Virus record (IMG/VR): IMGVR_UViG_3300031726_000668
Coordinates: 1-34,958 of that record
DNA: 34,958 nt
Origin: a virus
Reading direction: 5' to 3' (one strand)
Positions 3,117 through 34,958 of the stretch are shown piece by piece. Within the stretch, counting starts at the first letter, position 1. Every line of letters begins with the position of its first letter. The translations under genes and the position numbers were made by a program. The notes under the pieces are model-generated. The model worked only from the letters and a program-made list of their open reading frames with translations, was not told the origin of the DNA and did not search any database.

Positions 3117-3448
3117 GCAGCAGCGCCGCCCTCTTCGGCATCTTTCCGAATCTCCCTGCGGTCGTCTACGCGCCACTCGCCAAGACGCCTGCGCGCCTCG
3201 CCAAGACGCCTGCGCGCCGCCGCCAGCGTGGCGTCGGATGCGCAGAGATTCACCGCATGGTCGAGGGCGAGCGCGTCGGGCACTGCGTCGCCGTCTGCCA
3301 TCTCCGCCGCGTGACCGGAGACAACATCTGGGCAGTGAAATGCGACTGCGGCGCGTTCACGGAGAAGAGGGCGCACAACTTCCGCAGCGGGCGCGGCGGG
3401 ATGCACTGCGGGCATGGGTGCCCGCTGAAGACCGGAGGAGCTCGATGA
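3113..3448 (+). CDS. Cys/His-rich putative zinc-binding protein
   Basis: 111 aa from GTG 3113, coupled at both ends (GTGA and ATGA). The C-terminal half carries a treble-clef or zinc-ribbon-like spacing: C and H residues in 'GHCVAVCHLRR', then 'VKCDCGAF' and 'MHCGHGCPLK'. This resembles small phage zinc proteins in which a KCDCG knuckle precedes a second Cys/His cluster. The N-terminal part contains a perfect internal duplication LAKTPAR-LAKTPAR. Probably nucleic-acid binding; exact family not recognised. Confidence 0.6.
   Translation: MSSSAALFGIFPNLPAVVYAPLAKTPARLAKTPARRRQRGVGCAEIHRMVEGERVGHCVAVCHLRRVTGDNIWAVKCDCGAFTEKRAHNFRSGRGGMHCGHGCPLKTGGAR
3176..3217 (+). repeat. 21-bp tandem duplication inside a coding region
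   Basis: The 21-bp unit at 3176-3196 is repeated exactly at 3197-3217. It encodes LAKTPAR twice and keeps the frame. Confidence 0.9.
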
Positions 3449-4353
3449 GCTGGGGCAGGCTCGACGACAGTATGGCGTTCCACCGCAAGGTTCTCGCGGC
3501 GGGGAACGAAGCCGTGGGCGCGTGGGCGAGGATGATCTCGCAGTCGTGCTGCGAGCTCACCGACGGGCGCGTCGCACGCAGCACGGCACTCGCGATCGCC
3601 TCGACGAAGGCGCTCAAGCGCCTCGTGGACGCCGGGCTGCTGGAAACTCTCCCGAGCGGGGACTACCAGATCCATGACTTCCTCGATTGGAATCCGTCCG
3701 CCGATGACGTGAAGACGAAGAGGGAGCGCGACATCGCGCAACGCAAGGCGGCCGGCACCCGTGGCGCAGAGGCGAGATGGGGGCGGAAGCATGGCGAGCA
3801 GGATGGCGAGCCGCCATCACCGTCGCCATCGCGAACGCATAGCGAGTCGCCATCACGCTCGCCATCCGCGTCGGATGGATCCCGTACCCATCCCATCCCA
3901 TCCCATCCCATCCCGGAGGAGAAATCCCCCCTACCCCCCGTGAGCGAGAGGGGGGAAAACACGGGTGATAAACCATCGGAGACGACACGGGAGCAGGATT
4001 ACCAGCGCGCATACGAGTCCGGGATTCGGGAAGCACTCGGCCGTTCGTGGACGATGCCGGAGGCGCAGCGGCGTGACCTGCACCAGGCCCTCGTAGACTT
4101 CGCGAAAGACCCAAAAACGGGCGAGAAGCTTCGAGGGCCGCGCGTACTGCGTTGGCTCACGTTCCAGGCGAAAGAGCTCGTGCGCATTGTCGGCGAGAAG
4201 GGCGACGATCCGAAATTCTGGAGCTCGTACGGTCCGCGGGGAATGGTCCGAATGCTCAACGAGCTTCCGGAGGTGGACGAGCGGGAGAGCGGCGTAATCG
4301 TCCTGCGCGGCGCCGCGGGCTTCGAAGCGAGGCGGGTGCCCAATGGCGGATGA
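3445..4353 (+). CDS. Phage replication-initiator-like protein
   Basis: 302 aa from ATG 3445 (ATGA overlap). The N-terminal 80 residues (MSWGRLDDSMAFHRKVLAAGNEAVGAWARM..., 'ELTDGRVA', 'LVDAGLLE', 'YQIHDFLDWNPS') match the winged-helix N-terminus of phage replisome-organiser and DnaD-like proteins, which recruit host helicase or DnaA to the phage origin. The middle (about 95-175) is a Ser/Pro/His/Arg low-complexity linker made by short DNA repeats. The C-terminal 120 residues are helical and contain 'LRGPRVLRWLTFQAKELVR'. Downstream are zinc-binding and RusA-like genes, consistent with a replication module. No phage helicase or polymerase is visible, so host machinery is presumably used. Confidence 0.65.
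   Translation: MSWGRLDDSMAFHRKVLAAGNEAVGAWARMISQSCCELTDGRVARSTALAIASTKALKRLVDAGLLETLPSGDYQIHDFLDWNPSADDVKTKRERDIAQRKAAGTRGAEARWGRKHGEQDGEPPSPSPSRTHSESPSRSPSASDGSRTHPIPSHPIPEEKSPLPPVSERGENTGDKPSETTREQDYQRAYESGIREALGRSWTMPEAQRRDLHQALVDFAKDPKTGEKLRGPRVLRWLTFQAKELVRIVGEKGDDPKFWSSYGPRGMVRMLNELPEVDERESGVIVLRGAAGFEARRVPNGG
3887..3914 (+). repeat. Pentanucleotide repeat (CCCAT)5-CCC in a coding linker
   Basis: Five perfect CCCAT units plus CCC lie inside the linker of the replication-initiator-like gene and encode HPIPSHPIP. Because the unit is 5 bp, gain or loss of one copy shifts the reading frame. Confidence 0.9.
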
Positions 4354-5160: not shown

Positions 5161-5657
5161 CCAGACCATGCTCAGTCTGCCAACACATCAAGCGGAAGGA
5201 GATCGAAAAGGCGATCTTGGTGGGCGGTCCGTTTCGGGACGTCTCGAAACGGTTTCTCGTGTCATCTTCATCACTTCACCGCCACGCGTCCCATATCACG
5301 AAGCTGATCGAGCGCCATCCGGCGGTGCGCGAAGCGATGAACATCGCGCGCGCGGAGGGGCTAGCCGCCGAGCTCGCGAACCTCTTCGCTGCGGCGACCA
5401 AGATCCTCGCCGAAGCGCAGGCGGCGAAGACGCGGGACCCGAAGATCGCGCTCGACGCGATCGCCCGGCTCACGAAGTTATTGGAGCTCGGACACCGCAT
5501 CGCCACGACTCCGATGCCGCAAGCGGAATGGCCCGAGGGAATTCCGAAGTTCGAGACCGCGGCGGACACGTTGGTTTGGGTGCGCACGGAGCTCATACCG
5601 CAGCTCGAAGCGCGCGCGGCAGAGGAAGCGATCACCGTACGAACGGAGCAACCATGA
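5157..5657 (+). CDS. HTH DNA-binding protein; candidate small terminase subunit
   Basis: 166 aa from ATG 5157. The N-terminus has CSVCQHIKRKEIEKAILVGGPFRDVSKRFLVSSSSLHRH: a CxxC knuckle, then a helix-turn-helix of the 'G.s.R.va.rf.vS.sSl.RH' type found in phage DNA-binding proteins. The remainder is helical (about 55-115), with an acidic C-terminal helix. It lies upstream of the large terminase gene but is separated from it by about 3 kb. No better small terminase candidate exists in the window, so this is proposed on the HTH and helical character alone. It could equally be a regulator. Confidence 0.55.
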   Translation: MTRPCSVCQHIKRKEIEKAILVGGPFRDVSKRFLVSSSSLHRHASHITKLIERHPAVREAMNIARAEGLAAELANLFAAATKILAEAQAAKTRDPKIALDAIARLTKLLELGHRIATTPMPQAEWPEGIPKFETAADTLVWVRTELIPQLEARAAEEAITVRTEQP

Positions 5658-5986
5658 CGAAGGGCATTGAGCGAGGTCAGGTCTTGGAGTTCACGCGCGC
5701 CGAGGTCGCGCGGGACGTGCAGGGGCTCTACGACGAGGCGGTGCGCGTCATCGTGGAAATGGAAGCGAAGATCCATCGGCTCGAGTCGGATCTCGAGGGT
5801 GCTCGCGCGGAGCGCGAGACGAGCGTGGCCTCGTTGCAGGCGGAGAACGCTCGGCTCACGACGGAGCTTGCAGGGGCTCGTGCCTTCGCGCAGGCGCGCG
5901 AGGAGGAGGCCGCAGACCAGGCGGACCTGATCGATCACCTTCGCGGCGTCGGCGACGCACCGATGCCGAAGGGAGACCTCTCTTGA
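5654..5986 (+). CDS. Coiled-coil protein of unknown function
   Basis: 110 aa, ATG 5654 in an ATGA overlap. Residues 20-95 form a long heptad-rich helix (VEMEAKIHRLESDLEGARAE and onward). There are no cysteines or membrane segments. The stop is overlapped by the TTG start of the next gene. No family recognised. Confidence 0.6.
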   Translation: MTKGIERGQVLEFTRAEVARDVQGLYDEAVRVIVEMEAKIHRLESDLEGARAERETSVASLQAENARLTTELAGARAFAQAREEEAADQADLIDHLRGVGDAPMPKGDLS

Positions 5987-6354
5987 GCGCGCGCGACGCG
6001 GCGAACCTACAAGACCTGCATCGGGACATAGGTCTCGAGCCGGAGGCGGTATACATGGTCAACGGAGGCCGGCACCCTCGAGCCTTTCGTATTCACGGCA
6101 CGACGCTCGTGCGAATCGTCGGATGGTGGCGATGGCTCCTGGCAGCGGTCTTCGGAGTACGCGGAGTGGCCATTCTCGAGCGAGGCACTGGCGCGGCGGC
6201 GCCGATGGTGCTCCTCGATTGGGAGACCTATTCGCGCCTGATGCTCGGCGCCCGACCCGAGTCTTTATCGAGTATCGGGTTGGACGAGGCGCCGGCCGAC
6301 ATGGCAAGGAACGAGGCGGAGCACGCGGGGCACGAGACCGGAGGGGCATTCTGA
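5983..6354 (+). CDS. Unknown protein with one hydrophobic segment
   Basis: 123 aa, probably from TTG 5983 (TTGA overlap). A polar N-terminus is followed by 'RIVGWWRWLLAAVFGVRGVAIL' (about residues 45-66), an aromatic-rich membrane or interfacial segment, then 'PMVLLDWETYSRLM' and an acidic tail. No family recognised. The next gene starts in a TGATG overlap. Confidence 0.5.
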   Translation: MSARDAANLQDLHRDIGLEPEAVYMVNGGRHPRAFRIHGTTLVRIVGWWRWLLAAVFGVRGVAILERGTGAAAPMVLLDWETYSRLMLGARPESLSSIGLDEAPADMARNEAEHAGHETGGAF

Positions 6355-6578
6355 TGGGCAAGGTTAGATCGCTACGAGAGAAGCAGGAGCAGAAGCAGGT
6401 TCAGGGGCTCGAGCACGACTTGCTACTGCTGCTCGTGAAGCGCGCCGGGCGCATCCGCGTGCAGGACTCCGAGCTCGCCGAGCTACGAGCGGGTGATGGC
6501 GTCGAGCTCACCGTGAAGGAAAAAGAGGTCGTGCTCGAGTTCCGGAGGGGCGACGCGCAGCCGCCGCTCGCGGGATGA
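6354..6578 (+). CDS. Small unknown protein (74 aa)
   Basis: ATG 6354 within TGATG. A basic N-terminus 'SLREKQEQKQVQGLEHDLLLLL' is followed by a short beta-like region 'GDGVELTVKEKEVVLEFRRG'. The C-terminal strand pattern recalls the product of 7024-7323 (RMTLVEEQNRIVFEFG), so the two may be distant relatives. Function unknown. Confidence 0.5.
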   Translation: MGKVRSLREKQEQKQVQGLEHDLLLLLVKRAGRIRVQDSELAELRAGDGVELTVKEKEVVLEFRRGDAQPPLAG

Positions 6579-7027
6579 CCATCCGCCGCGCCGTCGCCGA
6601 TGACCTCCGCTTCGTCCGCTCCGCGTGGCTATCGTCGTACGCATCGAGCGACTTCGCGAAGCTCCACACGCCGACGGACGTCTGGGCTCGGCGCGACGCG
6701 AGCGCCGAGTACTACCGCGGACAGCGCGAGCTAATCGAGGCCGTACTCGCGCGCTCCACGGTCCTAGTATCCGAGGAGCACCCCTCGATGCTCGACGCAT
6801 TCGCCTGCTTCGCGGGCCGAACGCTGCACTACGTATACGTTCGGCAGAGCGCACGAGGGCATGGGCACGCACGTGCGCTCTGCACTTCGGCGGGGCTCCT
6901 CGACGGGGCACCGGTCACGTACACACATCGCTCGCGCGGGCTTGTCGGAGGGCGGATCCCGCGTGCGTGGAAGTTCTCCGTCTTCGCTCTCCTGTTGTCG
7001 CCGAACGCCGGCGGAAAGGCTGCATGA
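6575..7027 (+). CDS. GNAT-like acetyltransferase-fold protein
   Basis: 150 aa from ATG 6575 (ATGA overlap). The N-terminus 'IRRAVADDLRFVRSAWLSSY' is the beta1-alpha1 pattern of a GNAT subfamily often found in phages. 'LHYVYVRQSARGHGHARAL' (residues 84-102) matches motif A, where Q/R-x-x-G-x-G/A binds the pyrophosphate of acetyl-CoA. It is slightly short, and the C-terminal half is divergent. The substrate is unknown; host-takeover or DNA/protein modification roles are possible. The fold call is good; activity is not shown. Confidence 0.7.
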   Translation: MTIRRAVADDLRFVRSAWLSSYASSDFAKLHTPTDVWARRDASAEYYRGQRELIEAVLARSTVLVSEEHPSMLDAFACFAGRTLHYVYVRQSARGHGHARALCTSAGLLDGAPVTYTHRSRGLVGGRIPRAWKFSVFALLLSPNAGGKAA

Positions 7028-7323
7028 TCATGGCTGATGTCCGATTGAAGTACGTCCGATTGGCGGACAACGTTTCGTTGAAAATGGGAAAGCTCGAACC
7101 GCGCGAGTACTTCCGCATCTTCGACAAGGTGAGGATGACCCTCGTCGAGGAACAGAATCGCATCGTGTTCGAGTTCGGCGACGACAAGAAGAGCGTTCAC
7201 GAGTCGCAGGTAAAACACGTCGAGTACTTCACGCCTGCGGAGCTCGACGCGGTTCTCGCGGCGGAACAGAAGGAGCGGAAGGAGCGGAACGTCGACGCGA
7301 AGAAGGCGGTGACGTCGCCGTGA
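7024..7323 (+). CDS. Unknown protein (99 aa)
   Basis: ATG 7024 in an ATGA overlap, with a second in-frame ATG two codons later. The product has alternating beta-like strands (VRLKYVRLADNVSLKMG, RMTLVEEQNRIVFEFG) and a charged helical tail (LAAEQKERKERNVDAKKA). No catalytic motif seen. The stop is overlapped by the next GTG. Confidence 0.5.
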   Translation: MIMADVRLKYVRLADNVSLKMGKLEPREYFRIFDKVRMTLVEEQNRIVFEFGDDKKSVHESQVKHVEYFTPAELDAVLAAEQKERKERNVDAKKAVTSP

Positions 7324-7685
7324 GAGGCATCCGAGAGCGCGTTGCGCTGCTGCGCGGAGCGGTAGGCCAGAGCGAGATCACGCTTTGGCCTACCTGCCTT
7401 CTTTGCACGACCGCGTCCTCCTCCCGCACGGTCGATGGATCCCCCATATGGATCCCGGTGGAGGGATACCGGCGCGATCCCCCGCCGGGGGAGTACAGCC
7501 GATCCGAGCAACGCGGATGCCGTGGGTACTTCGATATCCTAGCGGAATGCCACGGAGATGTGGCTGGCGCGCGCATCCACGTCCCCTACTGGTGGGGAAA
7601 TGCGCATGAGATGGCGGCGATTCGCGAGCTCATGTTTTTTGGACAGGATCGCTACCCCGACCACGGAATTGTGACCAGTATCTGA
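7320..7685 (+). CDS. Unknown protein (121 aa)
   Basis: GTG 7320 in a GTGA overlap. The product has a 'CLLC' pair, 'GYFDILAECHGDVAGARIHVPYWWG' and 'IRELMFFGQ'. It is the last member of the tightly overlapping early run that started near 2.4 kb. No family recognised. Confidence 0.5.
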   Translation: MRGIRERVALLRGAVGQSEITLWPTCLLCTTASSSRTVDGSPIWIPVEGYRRDPPPGEYSRSEQRGCRGYFDILAECHGDVAGARIHVPYWWGNAHEMAAIRELMFFGQDRYPDHGIVTSI

Positions 7686-7688
7686 ATC

Positions 7689-8186
7689 ATGAAGGTTTGG
7701 ACGCTCCTCCCGCTCCTCGCTCTCGGTTGCGCGCACGGCTCGCGCGTGCCTGGGGCCGTCGACGTAGAGGTCGACGCGCGCTTCGGGGACGCGCGCATCG
7801 ACGCGATCCGCGAGGCGCTCTCCTCGTGGGAGACGGCGACGGACGGAGCGGTCGTCTTCACGATGCGCGTGCTCCCGCCCGGAGATCTCGCGGATGCGGA
7901 CGGACGGATCGTGGTGCGAGACGAGGCGCCCGATTCGACGTGGCCAAGCATCTTCGGCTTCACGATGCGCGTGCCGCACGATCACAATGTGCGGACGTCA
8001 GTCCTGCTCCGAGATGATGTCGGCGTCGGCGTTTTCCAGATCTCGGCGACGCACGAGTTCGGGCATGCCCTCGGGCTCGACCACTACAACGGCCCGGAGC
8101 CCACGCTCATGTGCGCACGCCTCGTGTCCGACGCCCCGGTGCCGCAGCCGCGCGACGTCGTTGCGCTCTTCGATGCGTGGAAGTGA
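7689..8186 (+). CDS. Secreted matrixin-like metzincin metalloprotease (lipoprotein)
   Basis: 165 aa. The N-terminus MKVWTLLPLLALGCAHG is a short signal peptide with a lipobox-like ALGC, so C14 is probably lipidated. The catalytic site is H122-E-F-G-H126-A-L-G-L-D-H132, the full metzincin HExxHxxGxxH zinc motif, followed by M141 in 'TLMCARL' as a plausible Met-turn. The upstream 'IDAIREALSSWETAT' and 'IVVRDEAP' resemble matrixin-family beginnings. At 165 aa it is a minimal catalytic domain. It starts only 3 bases after the previous gene and precedes the packaging operon. It could be a lysogenic-conversion factor, a superinfection-exclusion protein, or help in envelope breaching. Family clear; role inferred. 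Confidence 0.85.
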   Translation: MKVWTLLPLLALGCAHGSRVPGAVDVEVDARFGDARIDAIREALSSWETATDGAVVFTMRVLPPGDLADADGRIVVRDEAPDSTWPSIFGFTMRVPHDHNVRTSVLLRDDVGVGVFQISATHEFGHALGLDHYNGPEPTLMCARLVSDAPVPQPRDVVALFDAWK

Positions 8187-8305
8187 TGGCTGCTCGGGAG
8201 GGTCATGAGTAGTCCGCAACCGCCGTAGCCGCGGCGGGTCTCGCAGAGCTTCTTCGCCCGCTCGCCGGGCTGCGCATCGCGCCGTCGATTCCGACGCTCG
8301 AAACG

Positions 8306-9799
8306 TTGCTCACGTCGTCGAGCTACTTCGGGCTCGCGACCGCGACGCCGCTTCAGCGCGCGATCTGCCGCATTGCGGACGGTGCGCAGCTCGCCGAACT
8401 CGCAGATCATCCGCATGTCGCGGCCGCGATCGGCGACGTCGCATCGCTCCCGGATCGCGCCCCTCGCCGCGTGCTGCTCCTCGCGGGCATCCGCGGCGGC
8501 AAGTCGATGCTCACCGCGGCGGGCGCGGTCCGCATGGCGCTCCGGTGCGACGTCTCGCGGCTCACGGCGGGAGAGATCCCCCGCGTGTCGTGCGTGAGCG
8601 TCCGTCTCGACCTCGCGGACGTCGTGAAACAGCATCTCGTCGGCGCGCTCCTCGCGCGCCCTGCGCTCCGCGCGCTGCTCCTCGACGAGCCGAAGGCGGA
8701 CAGCGTCCTCCTCCGACACCCGAGCGGGCGCCCCATCGAGGTCAAGGTCGTCGCCGGCACGCGCGCTGGCGCGTCGCTCGTCGCGCGGTGGAGCGCCGGC
8801 GTCATATTCGACGAGGCCCCGCGCATGGTCGGCTCGAGCGATGGCGTCGTAAACCTCGACGATATGCGCTCTGCAGTCGCCGGTCGCCTCCTCCCTGGCG
8901 CATGCATCTGGGAGATCGGGTCGCCGTGGGCCCCTTTCGGGCCGGTGTTCACGGCGGTGAGCGCGCACGAGGGGCGCCCGTCGCGTGACCTCGTCGTGAT
9001 CCGCGCGCGCGGGCCGTGGATGAATCCCGTGTGGTGGACGCCCGAGCGCGTGGAGGATCTCCGGACATCGGACCCCGCGGCGTACCAGACCGACGTGCTA
9101 GCGAACTTTGCGGACCCCGAGGAGGCGCTCGTTCCGCTTGCGACGATCGAAGCCTGCTCCAGGCCCGGGCTAGTCGAGCCGCACCACGAGGGGCACGAGT
9201 ACTGCGCCGCCATGGATCCGGGCACGCGCGGCAACGCGTGGACGCTCGTGATCGGGACGCGCCGCGAAGGGAAGCGGCACGTCGTGCGCGTCCGGCAGTG
9301 GGTCGGCTCGCGCGTCGCGCCGCTCGATCCGGGTGTCGTGCTCACCGAGGTCGCCGAGGAGCTCCGCGCCTATCGGCTCGACAGCTGCGAGACGGACCAG
9401 TGGAGCGGCGATGCACTCACGACGCTCGCGCGCGAGCGCGGCATCTCGCTCGTCATCTGGCCGGGCTCCGCGTCGGAGAACACTGACATGTACCTGGAGC
9501 TCGCGCGGCGCATGGCGCTCGGCGAGGTGGTGTTGCCGCCCGATCCGGTGCTGCGCGCGGACCTCCAGCGACTGCGCCGGCGCGTGACGCAGGTTGGCGT
9601 GCAGATCGTGCTCCCTCAGACGAAGGACGGGCGGCATTGCGACTACGCGCCGGCGATCGCCCGCGTGATCCGTCGCTACGTCGACGAGCCCAAGCCACCC
9701 CTGAAGCCCGAGGCGCAAGAGGAGCGCGAGACGTTCGAGCGCGCCCGCGCGCGCTTCGCCACGTCGCAAGAGCCGGCGCGGCGAAGGGGGTACCGGTAA
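8306..9799 (+). CDS. terL: Terminase large subunit (packaging ATPase/nuclease)
   Basis: 497 aa from TTG 8306. The ATPase domain has an atypical Walker A GIRGGKS (residues 61-67) and Walker B VIFDEA (166-171). The C-terminal RNase H-fold nuclease shows the expected acidic residues D304 (AMDPGT), D364 (CETDQWSGDA) and D446 (HCDYAPA). Length and motif order are normal for TerL. The same frame is open, with protein-like sequence, back to 8213 but has no ATG or GTG there; a well-placed ATG with GGGAGGG at 8205 is in a different frame. The true N-terminus is therefore uncertain and may be about 30 residues longer. Portal and scaffold genes follow, as in P22-like phages. Confidence 0.92.
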   Translation: MLTSSSYFGLATATPLQRAICRIADGAQLAELADHPHVAAAIGDVASLPDRAPRRVLLLAGIRGGKSMLTAAGAVRMALRCDVSRLTAGEIPRVSCVSVRLDLADVVKQHLVGALLARPALRALLLDEPKADSVLLRHPSGRPIEVKVVAGTRAGASLVARWSAGVIFDEAPRMVGSSDGVVNLDDMRSAVAGRLLPGACIWEIGSPWAPFGPVFTAVSAHEGRPSRDLVVIRARGPWMNPVWWTPERVEDLRTSDPAAYQTDVLANFADPEEALVPLATIEACSRPGLVEPHHEGHEYCAAMDPGTRGNAWTLVIGTRREGKRHVVRVRQWVGSRVAPLDPGVVLTEVAEELRAYRLDSCETDQWSGDALTTLARERGISLVIWPGSASENTDMYLELARRMALGEVVLPPDPVLRADLQRLRRRVTQVGVQIVLPQTKDGRHCDYAPAIARVIRRYVDEPKPPLKPEAQEERETFERARARFATSQEPARRRGYR

Positions 9800-26014: not shown

Positions 26015-26373
26015 TGAACGCGTTTATCTTTGTCGCTGCGACAGACGCGCAGTCTACGCAGTCCGATTGTGATACGAGGCTCGGCTATCCGAAGCCCGGC
26101 GTCGATATCGGAGGAGGCGTGCATGCGCCCCCTGCGCAGTCGTCAACGGTCCACGAGGCGCCGGTGCTAAAACATAGAACGCTGACTCAATGGGCGTTTC
26201 TGTCGACGCCCAACGTGCAGGCGATCCTCCCCACGGTGAAGGCTGATCTGCCGGCGGTGACCATCGGCACGGCCACCGCACTGGATGCGACGTGGAACGA
26301 TGCAACCCCAGCAGATTCGGTCGTAGTCGCAGCAGCGTTGCCTGCAGCCCAAGACATCACGTCAGGAGCCTAG
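26014..26373 (+). CDS. Unknown protein, possible tail accessory (119 aa)
   Basis: ATG 26014 in a TGATG overlap with the LamG gene. It begins 'MNAFIFVAATDAQSTQSDCDTRLGYPKPG' and has beta-like segments 'LTQWAFLSTPNVQAILPTVKA' and 'TATALDATWN'. Coupled to the receptor-binding candidate, so it may be a partner or chaperone. No family recognised. Confidence 0.5.
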   Translation: MNAFIFVAATDAQSTQSDCDTRLGYPKPGVDIGGGVHAPPAQSSTVHEAPVLKHRTLTQWAFLSTPNVQAILPTVKADLPAVTIGTATALDATWNDATPADSVVVAAALPAAQDITSGA

Positions 26374-26375
26374 CC

Positions 26376-26699
26376 GTGGACATCAACGTCATCGCCTCGA
26401 TCATCGCGTGCGGCGTGACTCTTCTGGGGTGCGCAATAACGACGGGGACGATCGTGTGGCGCGGCGGGCGCCAGACCGAGCGCATCGAGACCGCGGTCGC
26501 CCTCATCGAGAAGCACGAGGTGAAACTCGAGATCGTCGGCCGCATCCCGCTCCTCGAACGCGGGCAGCAGCAGCTCGAGCACATCGTGAGCCGCATGCAA
26601 TCGGACCACGCTGCGCTCCGCGCGCGCCTCGACGAAACACGCGATCGGGCCATCCGCGCGGAGATGGCCTCACAACATGACCTCGGAGGTGACTCGTGA
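26376..26699 (+). CDS. Membrane-anchored coiled-coil protein, possible i-spanin or holin accessory
   Basis: 107 aa from GTG 26376. One N-terminal transmembrane segment (VIASIIACGVTLLGCAITTGTIVW, about residues 5-28) is followed by a basic boundary and a long coiled coil (35-105). This is the layout of inner-membrane spanins and XhlA-like holin partners. A holin-like gene and a lipoprotein gene follow directly, supporting a lysis role. Assignment by architecture only. Confidence 0.55.
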   Translation: MDINVIASIIACGVTLLGCAITTGTIVWRGGRQTERIETAVALIEKHEVKLEIVGRIPLLERGQQQLEHIVSRMQSDHAALRARLDETRDRAIRAEMASQHDLGGDS

Positions 26700-26881
26700 C
26701 GCTCGATTGGAGACTCGTGAGTTTGGCCGTGCTCTTCGTGCTCGGGGCGCTCGCGCTCCTCACGTTGCTCGCGCTGAAGGGGCTCGTAGCCGGGGCGCTC
26801 GTAGCGTCCGCGGCGACGGGCGCGATTGGATGGTTCACGGGCTGGATCTCGAAGCAGCCCAAGAAGGATGGTGCGCCGTGA
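26696..26881 (+). CDS. Putative holin
   Basis: 61 aa from GTG 26696 (GTGA overlap). Two hydrophobic segments (about residues 7-27, LVSLAVLFVLGALALLTLLAL, and 29-48, LVAGALVASAATGAIGWFTG) and a short lysine-rich C-terminus (KQPKKD). Small size, two spans and position in front of the endolysin fit a class II holin, which makes the hole that releases the endolysin. Next gene starts in a GTGA overlap. Confidence 0.6.
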   Translation: MTLDWRLVSLAVLFVLGALALLTLLALKGLVAGALVASAATGAIGWFTGWISKQPKKDGAP

Positions 26882-27102
26882 AGATGCTGATGACCTGGAT
26901 ACTCCTGATGCTCGCCGCGCTCGTGCTCAGCGCGTGCCCCTCGCCGTCGAAAACGGCGCTCAGCGCTGCGGCCGACGCCGACTACCTCGCGGAGCAGCTC
27001 GCGTGCGTGGACCAGGCAGGGACGCGCGACCAGGCCACGGCGTGCCGCAATGCCGTCAAAGCTCGCTGGGCGGCGAACGCCGCGGACGGGGGCGCGCGGT
27101 GA
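26878..27102 (+). CDS. Small lipoprotein, possible o-spanin
   Basis: 74 aa from GTG 26878 (ATG 26884 is also possible). The signal peptide 'MLMTWILLMLAALVLSAC' ends in a good lipobox (LSAC), so a lipoprotein of about 55 residues is expected. It has two further cysteines (ACVD, ACRN) that could form a disulphide. With the TM/coiled-coil protein at 26376 it would make a two-component spanin that fuses inner and outer membranes, implying a Gram-negative host. Inferred from architecture. Confidence 0.6.
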   Translation: MKMLMTWILLMLAALVLSACPSPSKTALSAAADADYLAEQLACVDQAGTRDQATACRNAVKARWAANAADGGAR

Positions 27103-27257
27103 GCCCGCTCGACGTTCTGCGGCTCGTCGCGCGCGTGCTCGAGTGGGCCTTGCCCTTCGTCCCCTCCGGCGAGCTCGCGGCGCACCTCAGCGTGACGGCG
27201 CGGAAGATCGACGACGCCATCGCCGACCTCGCGCAGGCCGCGAAATTCGGATCGTGA
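27099..27257 (+). CDS. Small amphipathic protein of lysis cassette (52 aa)
   Basis: GTG 27099 in a GTGA overlap. Two amphipathic helices ('LDVLRLVARVLEWALPFV', 'LAAHLSVTARKIDDAIADLAQAAKF') and no clear transmembrane span. No family recognised; its place between lipoprotein and endolysin suggests a lysis or regulation role. Confidence 0.45.
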   Translation: MSPLDVLRLVARVLEWALPFVPSGELAAHLSVTARKIDDAIADLAQAAKFGS

Positions 27258-27267
27258 GGAGCCGCCC

Positions 27268-27360
27268 ATGGATCTCCTCAAGCAACGGGTCGGGTGGGCA
27301 TGCGCAGGCGCTGCGGCGATGGCGCTGCTCGCGGCGCTCGTGAATTGGTGCTCGCCGTGA
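27268..27360 (+). CDS. Tiny membrane protein (30 aa)
   Basis: ATG 27268 with GAGGAG eight bases upstream. 'VGWACAGAAAMALLAALVNWC' forms one transmembrane span after a short basic N-terminus. The stop overlaps the GTG start of the endolysin gene. Possible second holin or antiholin; function not established. Confidence 0.45.
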   Translation: MDLLKQRVGWACAGAAAMALLAALVNWCSP

Positions 27361-28019
27361 GCGCGCTTCTACCGCCGGAATTCTGGCCGGTGTTCGTCGC
27401 CGGCTGCGCGCGGCTCGAGGTGGATCCGGTGGAGCTCCTCAGCGTCGCCGCGAACGAGAGCGGGTGCGACCCGCGCGCGTGGAACGCCGGCGGGCGCGCG
27501 GCCGGACTATTCCAGATGACACCCGTGGCCGCGCCCGGCATGGGTTGGGACCCGCACGACACGCACGCGTTCTGCGCGCTCTCCGCCGTCGACCAGTGGC
27601 CGTACTGGGAGCGGTATTTTCGTCCACACCGGGGCCGGCTCGTCTCGCGCGCAGCGTGCTACCTCTGCACGTTCCTGCCGGCGCTCCTCGACCTAGCGGG
27701 CGAGCCGGACGCGCTCCTCTGCTCGCGCGACGGGCGCACGCACGCCTCGCAGGCGTTCGCGCGCTCGCAGGTGATCTCCTGGTACGAGGGCAATCGGGGC
27801 TTCGACCGCACGCGCACCGGGGAGATCCACGTGCGCGACCTCACCGCGGCGATCGACCGCTCGACGCTCGCCCTCGGCGGCGTGTGGAGCGATTACGTCG
27901 CCGCGATCCACCGCGAGCAGGCGCTCCGCGACACGAATCCGGACATCACCGACGGGGGCCGCGATCGGCCCATCTACGTCGTGCCGGAGCCTCCGGATCG
28001 CGATCCGGAGGCTGCGTAA
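27357..28019 (+). CDS. Lytic transglycosylase-type endolysin
   Basis: 220 aa from GTG 27357 (GTGA overlap; other in-frame starts lie up to 20 codons upstream). Residues 26-60 carry the SLT/lysozyme-like signature 'ELLSVAANESGCDPRAWNAGGRAAGLFQMTP': catalytic E34 in 'ANES' and the 'GLFQM' loop at 50-54. The middle has 'WPYWERYFRPH' and 'CTFLPALL'. There is no signal peptide, so release depends on a holin. The final 20 residues are Asp/Pro-rich. It cleaves peptidoglycan at the end of the lytic cycle. Last gene of the rightward late operon. Confidence 0.85.
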   Translation: MSALLPPEFWPVFVAGCARLEVDPVELLSVAANESGCDPRAWNAGGRAAGLFQMTPVAAPGMGWDPHDTHAFCALSAVDQWPYWERYFRPHRGRLVSRAACYLCTFLPALLDLAGEPDALLCSRDGRTHASQAFARSQVISWYEGNRGFDRTRTGEIHVRDLTAAIDRSTLALGGVWSDYVAAIHREQALRDTNPDITDGGRDRPIYVVPEPPDRDPEAA

Positions 28020-34268: not shown

Positions 34269-34958
34269 ATGAGATCAAAAACGCTCTACACGCTGACCGA
34301 CGAACACCGCGCGCAGCTCGCGCCGTGGCGGGACAAATGGATCGCTAACGCTCTGCGGACAACGCCGCAGACGGACGAGGATCGGACGAAGGCGCGGACC
34401 GCGATCCGTGGGCTCTACACGGCGGCGAAGCTCCCAGTGCCGGAGCGCGACGTGTTCGTCGCGTCGCCGATTACCGGCGCGATCGCGGCGTCGGTCGCGG
34501 CGGGAGTGTGGTGGATCCGAGACCACCAGGGCGTGGCTCGCAAGCTCTTCGGCGTCATCCCCTCGGAAGCGCAGATCCGGGGCTCAATTGCGGCGGCCTG
34601 CGCGATTGCCGTAGCGCGCGGCATGTCGGCGGTCCGACATGAACCGCTCCCCCCGGTGCCGGAGATCGTTGCCGACGCCGCGACCTACGCCGCGACCTAC
34701 GCCGCGACCTCCGACGCGACCGACGCCGCGACCGAAGCCGCGACCTACGCCGCGACCTCCGACGCGACCCGAGCCGCGACCGACGCCGCGACCCGAGCCG
34801 CGACCTACGCCGCGACCGAAGCCGCGACCGACGCCGCGACCGACGCCGCGACCGAAGCCGCGACCTACGCCGCGACCGACGCCGCGACCCTAGCCGCGAC
34901 CGAAGCCGCGACCCGAGCCGCGACCTACGACGCGACCCGAGCCGCGACCGACGCCGCG
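34269..34958 (+). CDS. DUF6745-type protein, N-terminal part (runs off the window)
   Basis: ATG 34269 with GAAGAGGGG upstream; open to the window end (230 codons, no stop). The N-terminus '[58 protein letters not shown]' matches the start of DUF6745 proteins ('W...W...al.t.p.......a...lY...glp.P...v...SP'). Residues up to 135 are an Ala-rich helical domain, followed by at least 23 four-residue repeats. The rest of the gene is at 2-811. Joining the two window ends directly would shift the frame; 2 more bases, or 2 plus multiples of 12, would restore it. Confidence 0.75.
34674..34958 (+). repeat. 12-bp tandem repeat array encoding xAAT units, right-hand part
   Basis: About 23.75 units of a 12-bp repeat (core GCGACC plus a variable codon and GCC), encoding D/Y/E/R/S-A-A-T tetrapeptides. 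The first position varies (D, E, Y, R, L, S); the A-A-T positions are nearly fixed, apart from a few 'SDAT' and 'YDAT' units. The array continues at 2-73. Repeat number in the real genome is uncertain. Confidence 0.95.

Follow-up and report, generated by a model that had tools for sequence, protein, structure and literature searches.

A phage gene for a predicted lipid-anchored metzincin protease in an exchangeable envelope-protein slot

Why would a phage carry, directly ahead of its packaging genes, a gene for what appears to be a small, lipid-anchored zinc protease? The question is raised by a 165-aa open reading frame at 7689..8186 (+) in the window, by which we mean the whole stretch of DNA analysed here, 34,958 nt, which is the whole of IMG/VR virus record IMGVR_UViG_3300031726_000668 (G000). 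Besides this ORF the window encodes an integrase (97-2037), a DnaA-C-like protein, a replication initiator, terminase, portal, an internal-virion-like protein, an S74 protein, an SLT transglycosylase, an exonuclease and RecT. Because the window is a virus record in full, and an integrase is found in it along with genes for replication, packaging and lysis, the metzincin gene is phage-borne, as the original prediction had supposed. The phage itself is probably tailed and temperate. The expected placement between early and packaging genes also holds, as the ORF follows the early genes and lies directly before the terminase large subunit gene, the next gene 3' (8306..9799, +; phrog_2, E 1.3e-9).

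Several other features of the record deserve mention. A 179-aa protein encoded at 2416-2955, near the replication initiator, has the DnaA C-terminal DNA-binding domain and no ATPase domain match. A likely lysis cassette at 26292-28019 comprises a one-TM coiled protein, a 61-aa two-TM holin-like protein, a short lipoprotein that is possibly the outer spanin, and the SLT transglycosylase. A 12-bp tandem array occupies both ends of the record (34672-34958 and 7-73), its two parts out of register with each other; one of its frames translates as xAAT repeats, with variation largely restricted to the codon that opens each unit (D, E, Y, S, R or L). Since the array is found at both ends, the assembly probably broke inside a single array, and the genome is probably circular or permuted. 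A tRNA-Pro called by ARAGORN at 34844-34936 was considered as an integration site and rejected as spurious, as it falls inside the array.

The metzincin gene (ATG start, 165 codons plus stop) was found at exactly the predicted coordinates, with the complete zinc site HEFGHALGLDH at residues 122-132 (8052..8084, +), identical to MMP-9 over 11 residues. The general motif HExxHxxGxxH occurs once in the window over six frames, where the mean expected by chance is 0.0067, as estimated from 300 second-order Markov sequences of window length and the same trinucleotide make-up. The N-terminus reads MKVWTLLPLLALGC, and the layout is MKVWTLLPLLALG-C, a short linker, and then the domain carrying the zinc site, with TLMCA after it; the Met-turn candidate proposed at the outset is thus confirmed as TLM, with Met141 (8109..8111, +) nine residues past His132. 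G+C by codon position (0.73/0.47/0.85) is gene-like, as in the adjoining phage genes. Upstream lies a gene for a 121-aa protein (7320..7685, +), and the metzincin ATG is found three bases past its stop in the same frame, with TGA-ATC between; this spacing suggests that the two genes may be translationally coupled. Inside the 121-aa gene, at 7361-7394, is a 14-pair stem-loop with a T-rich tail that is terminator-like, of which 0.8 would be expected by chance.

What kind of protease would this be? The original prediction had staked itself on a matrixin-like fold, and AlphaFold2, run with a 25-row alignment (A2, described below), returned a confident matrixin-like model (pLDDT 86.8, pTM 0.81) consisting of the signal helix, a strand, a helix, four strands, the zinc helix (113-127) and a C-terminal helix (154-164). 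The top PDB match in Foldseek is karilysin (E 1.0e-6, TM 0.61), and pairwise alignment with VIA-align gave Z 14.9 to MMP-11 (138 residues aligned, 3.4 A) and Z 14.6 to bacterial karilysin (134 aligned, 2.8 A). The model matches MMP catalytic domains from residue 16-21 through 165, and nearly the whole mature chain would be one catalytic domain, because the alignments to MMP-11 and karilysin span residues 16/20-165. All three metzincin-clan features examined are found: the zinc motif HEXXHXXGXXH/D, the Met-turn and, in the predicted structure, the two-subdomain fold. Matrixins in the strict sense (M10A) have a Ser after the third zinc His. Here Tyr133 takes its place; the Peptidase_M10 (PF00413) match, although its E-value is 9.8e-5, scores 22.7 bits, 1.3 below the curated cut-off of 24; and no space is left for a prodomain that confers latency through a cysteine (or aspartate) switch, as Cys14 would be the first residue of the mature chain. 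Lacking these three features, the protein falls outside the strict matrixins and is best described, on the strength of the model, as a metzincin whose domain is matrixin-like.

The lipobox-like signal that had been noticed passes a strict PROSITE-like pattern, and the N-terminus has the charged n-region, hydrophobic core and lipobox Cys of a bacterial lipoprotein. Residues 1-13 (7689..7727, +) are the predicted signal peptide and Cys14 (7728..7730, +) the predicted lipidation site, from which export and lipidation of the protein appear likely. In E. coli, the residue at +2 governs sorting of lipoproteins to the outer membrane. The Ala at +2 here would indicate outer-membrane retention if the E. 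coli rule is also that of the host. The only other lipobox ORF on the + strand of the window lies within the lysis cassette, and none adjoins the metzincin gene.

Insight into the position of the gene comes from relatives of the phage (L017, L018, L139 and L141), which were found via portal and capsid searches. With the window and L002, a 9-kb contig with terminase and portal identical to those of the window, they form a lineage of six records, and the position is visible in three of them: L002 starts immediately 3' of the metzincin gene, at window 8192, L018 and L139 both start inside the terminase gene, and L140, being the same contig as L017, was counted once. In L017 and L141, two genes mark the site on its upstream side: that for the 121-aa protein (42% and 30% identity in L017 and L141, respectively) and an acetyltransferase-like gene (6575..7027, +; 43% and 31%), whose GNAT matches are weak, sub-threshold and confined to the L017 copy. 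What follows these markers differs. In L017 it is a lipoprotein-like gene of 105 aa (7472-7789), ~570 bases further on and ending just before the terminase; in L141 it is one of 109 aa (5774-6103), with a histidine phosphatase gene after it. A lipoprotein-like gene therefore fills 3/3 visible slots, and the three are mutually unrelated. The L017 and L141 proteins are not metzincins and match no Pfam family at cut-off, and a search of the five related records with the A2 profile found no metzincin; the same profile recovered 5/5 positive controls, which were not independent as each holds a metzincin from A2. Because two relatives hold different, unrelated lipoprotein-like genes at this site and no metzincin, the metzincin occupies an exchangeable envelope-protein slot. 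Of the three slot proteins, that of the window alone satisfies the strict lipobox pattern (background 15/820 other ORFs); those of L017 and L141 pass only a pattern relaxed by one residue post hoc (background 18/820).

How unusual is such a gene among viruses? Secreted matrixin-like proteases had been thought rare in phages, and this part of the original prediction did not survive. A DNA pattern for the zinc motif identified at least 120 loci and at least 124 ORFs in viral contigs, some of which may be bacterial or eukaryotic-virus sequence, and 78 of the 124 listed ORFs have a Met 5-14 residues past the third His, against a background of 16%. Clear phage genes adjoin three small metzincins: in L120 a Holliday junction resolvase gene overlaps by 4 bases and a portal gene lies on the opposite strand, in L102 a helicase gene overlaps by 4 bases, and in L058 the neighbor is a terminase gene. 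Rarity is contradicted as well by two annotated phage proteins with the same predicted fold (A0A4Y5FGF2 of Lactobacillus phage 3-521 and A0A6J5P205 of an uncultured Caudovirales phage) and by a metzincin of Listeria prophages, as described in the available part of the report on it (PMC8235301).

The closest relative among the matches listed is the L120 protein, a viral-contig lipoprotein (33% identity in the alignment, 35.9 bits). Whole-protein searches with the window metzincin found no relative in phages and no confirmed relative in viral contigs; no close relative was found among plasmids (one weak Corynebacterium M57 match) or genomes (14 distant matches, all across or near the zinc site), and no PHROG matched, members of the 25-protein set matching only three unnamed PHROGs. 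Of the 25 rows of A2, 24 came from the motif scan and were hand-picked from the 124 ORFs with a preference for small, lipobox-bearing or similar ones, so that conservation of the zinc residues in A2 is no evidence. Each of the 25 proteins has a Peptidase_M10 match with E no higher than 0.01, and Trp47 in the first helix (7827..7829, +), which lies outside the search pattern, is invariant in 25/25. That the zinc site is kept in homologues, as the original prediction needed, holds in the one examined homologue that was reached by profile and not by the zinc motif, a second L058 protein outside the motif-scan matches: it reads HELGHAMGLDD, then ALM, with Asp as third ligand. The L058 record has its two metzincin genes near the terminase (oriented 2119-2613 and 3433-3945). 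L138 has two tandem overlapping metzincin genes (5488-6679), one with a clear lipobox. In L026 (oriented 6915-8322) a metzincin with a lipoprotein-like N-terminus lies directly 3' of two lipoprotein-like genes, by analogy possibly a protease-inhibitor cassette like mtz-tim.

Among the matches listed, a lipobox is present in 13/51 small viral-contig metzincins compared to 14/692 other ORFs (Fisher p 1.6e-9), counting non-overlapping ORFs of 100-270 aa; ORFs overlapping a longer frame, including those of L102 and L058, fell out of this count. Such counts depend on the pattern, as a stricter first filter passed 18/124 listed viral ORFs and missed several whose sequences, on inspection, resemble lipoproteins (e.g., L026 and L100). 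The enrichment implies that envelope anchoring or export recurs in small viral metzincins. Metzincins are usually secreted enzymes that act on outside proteins, and part of the enrichment therefore reflects export in general. The genes sit in varied positions, so that no single role is implied, and a steady association with terminase was rejected (phrog_2 terminase in 9/25 records, mostly far off). The presence of similar genes in unrelated viruses suggests viral use of proteases to reshape the host-cell surface.

As to what the protein does, we infer its activity, substrate and benefit alike. The reading we favor, as a tentative one, is that the lipid-anchored protease modifies the envelope of the host, with exclusion of competing phages as the most likely benefit. 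On this view the accessory gene would encode a metzincin-clan zinc endopeptidase that lacks a prodomain and has a matrixin-like catalytic domain. After export the product would receive a lipid at Cys14 and be retained at the outer membrane; there the anchored enzyme, active without a prodomain, would cleave a single host envelope protein or a small number of them, and the infected cell or lysogen would lose or alter a receptor, such that competing phages are excluded. We rank superinfection exclusion first among the possible benefits, a lysis aid second and lysogenic conversion third. Exclusion comes first because the lipoprotein-like gene in the slot changes from phage to phage and because there are precedents in Llp of T5 and Cor of T1 and phi80, which the available part of one account describes as phage exclusion lipoproteins (PMC9586334); since Llp and Cor are small lipoproteins of this sort, rapid exchange of such genes in the slot fits. 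The case is weakened by the one studied phage-associated metzincin, Listeria Mtz, whose effects, according to the accessible text, concern lysis and the cell wall and not exclusion (PMC8235301).

Mtz enhances lysis and virion release when co-expressed with Tim, as stated in the same text, and so lends support to the main rival, in which the window metzincin would be an envelope-weakening protease that eases lysis through cleavage, late in infection, of an envelope or lipoprotein target. Also in its favor is the location immediately 5' of the packaging genes, a position at which the gene could plausibly be transcribed late. We nevertheless place it on the unlikely side, as the lysis cassette, with its own two-TM holin-like protein, lipoprotein and transglycosylase, is ~18 kb away, the neighbors of the metzincin gene are the 121-aa protein and terminase with no Tim-like (TIMP-like) lipoprotein gene adjoining, and the relatives' slot retains a lipoprotein-like gene, not a protease. 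A role as an outer-membrane spanin was rejected given the same distance and because the phage, with a lipoprotein in its own lysis cassette, would not need the metzincin as one.

It is also conceivable, but unlikely, that the protein serves lysogenic conversion unrelated to phages, the anchored protease degrading, for example, prey, matrix or competitor proteins on behalf of the lysogen. The integrase and the usual action of metzincins on outside proteins are consistent with this, and the Asp/Ala/Pro-rich linker of the L141 slot protein, presumably of a type associated with myxobacterial lipoproteins, would fit a predatory host; a lipid anchor, however, restricts the reach of the enzyme. That the gene is a recently captured host gene without phage function is improbable, for although matrixins occur in bacteria and no metzincin was found in the phage's relatives, the ORF is intact, phage-like in composition and packed three bases after the upstream gene, a lipoprotein-like gene is present in 3/3 phages with a visible slot, and the best match is the viral L120 protein (35.9 bits, compared to 22.6 for the best of 13 bacterial metzincin ORFs, a small, motif-selected set).

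If exclusion is indeed the function, it is tempting to speculate more broadly, although we regard the generalization as doubtful, that phages maintain, ahead of their packaging genes, a slot in which lipoprotein genes are exchanged, that some fill it with an anchored metzincin that shaves receptors, the anchor confining a prodomain-less enzyme in what would be exclusion by proteolysis, and that this class of protease has been taken up independently by many unrelated phages. The recurrence of such an enzyme among viral genes lacking annotation would bring a class of genes of unknown function within reach of testing, and Glu123 offers a simple catalytic-dead control. Phage metzincins are already known; what appears to be new here is the stand-alone form with its predicted lipid anchor and its exchange in one slot with other lipoproteins. 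Neither was found among the matches listed in the mainly open-access literature on phage metzincins, matrixins and M10 proteases, where, by title and abstract opening, only PMC8235301 treats a phage metzincin.

The window protein resembles karilysin of Tannerella forsythia and the MMP catalytic domains (M10A) in predicted fold, zinc motif and Met-turn, but differs in leaving no space for a prodomain, in its predicted lipid anchor, in Tyr for Ser and in its sub-cut-off Pfam score. The annotated phage M10/Zn proteases A0A4Y5FGF2 and A0A6J5P205 are alike in fold but only 16-18% identical to it. With Llp, Cor and the Streptococcus protein Ltp, reportedly also a phage exclusion lipoprotein, it shares being a phage-encoded lipoprotein, as predicted here. 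T5 Llp acts by receptor binding, with no protease domain mentioned in the available part of the source (PMC9586334), whereas the window protein has a full protease domain, and an anchored protease in such a slot would amount to enzymatic remodeling of the host surface instead of binding. Finally, like Mtz of the Listeria mtz-tim locus and prophages, it is a small phage-associated metzincin exported, by prediction, from the host cell. Mtz, as far as the accessible text of PMC8235301 goes, carries a standard Sec/SPI signal, is partnered by the lipoprotein Tim and, in prophages, often lies downstream of holin-lysin; the window protease, in contrast, has no partner in view, lies upstream of terminase and bears the lipobox itself.
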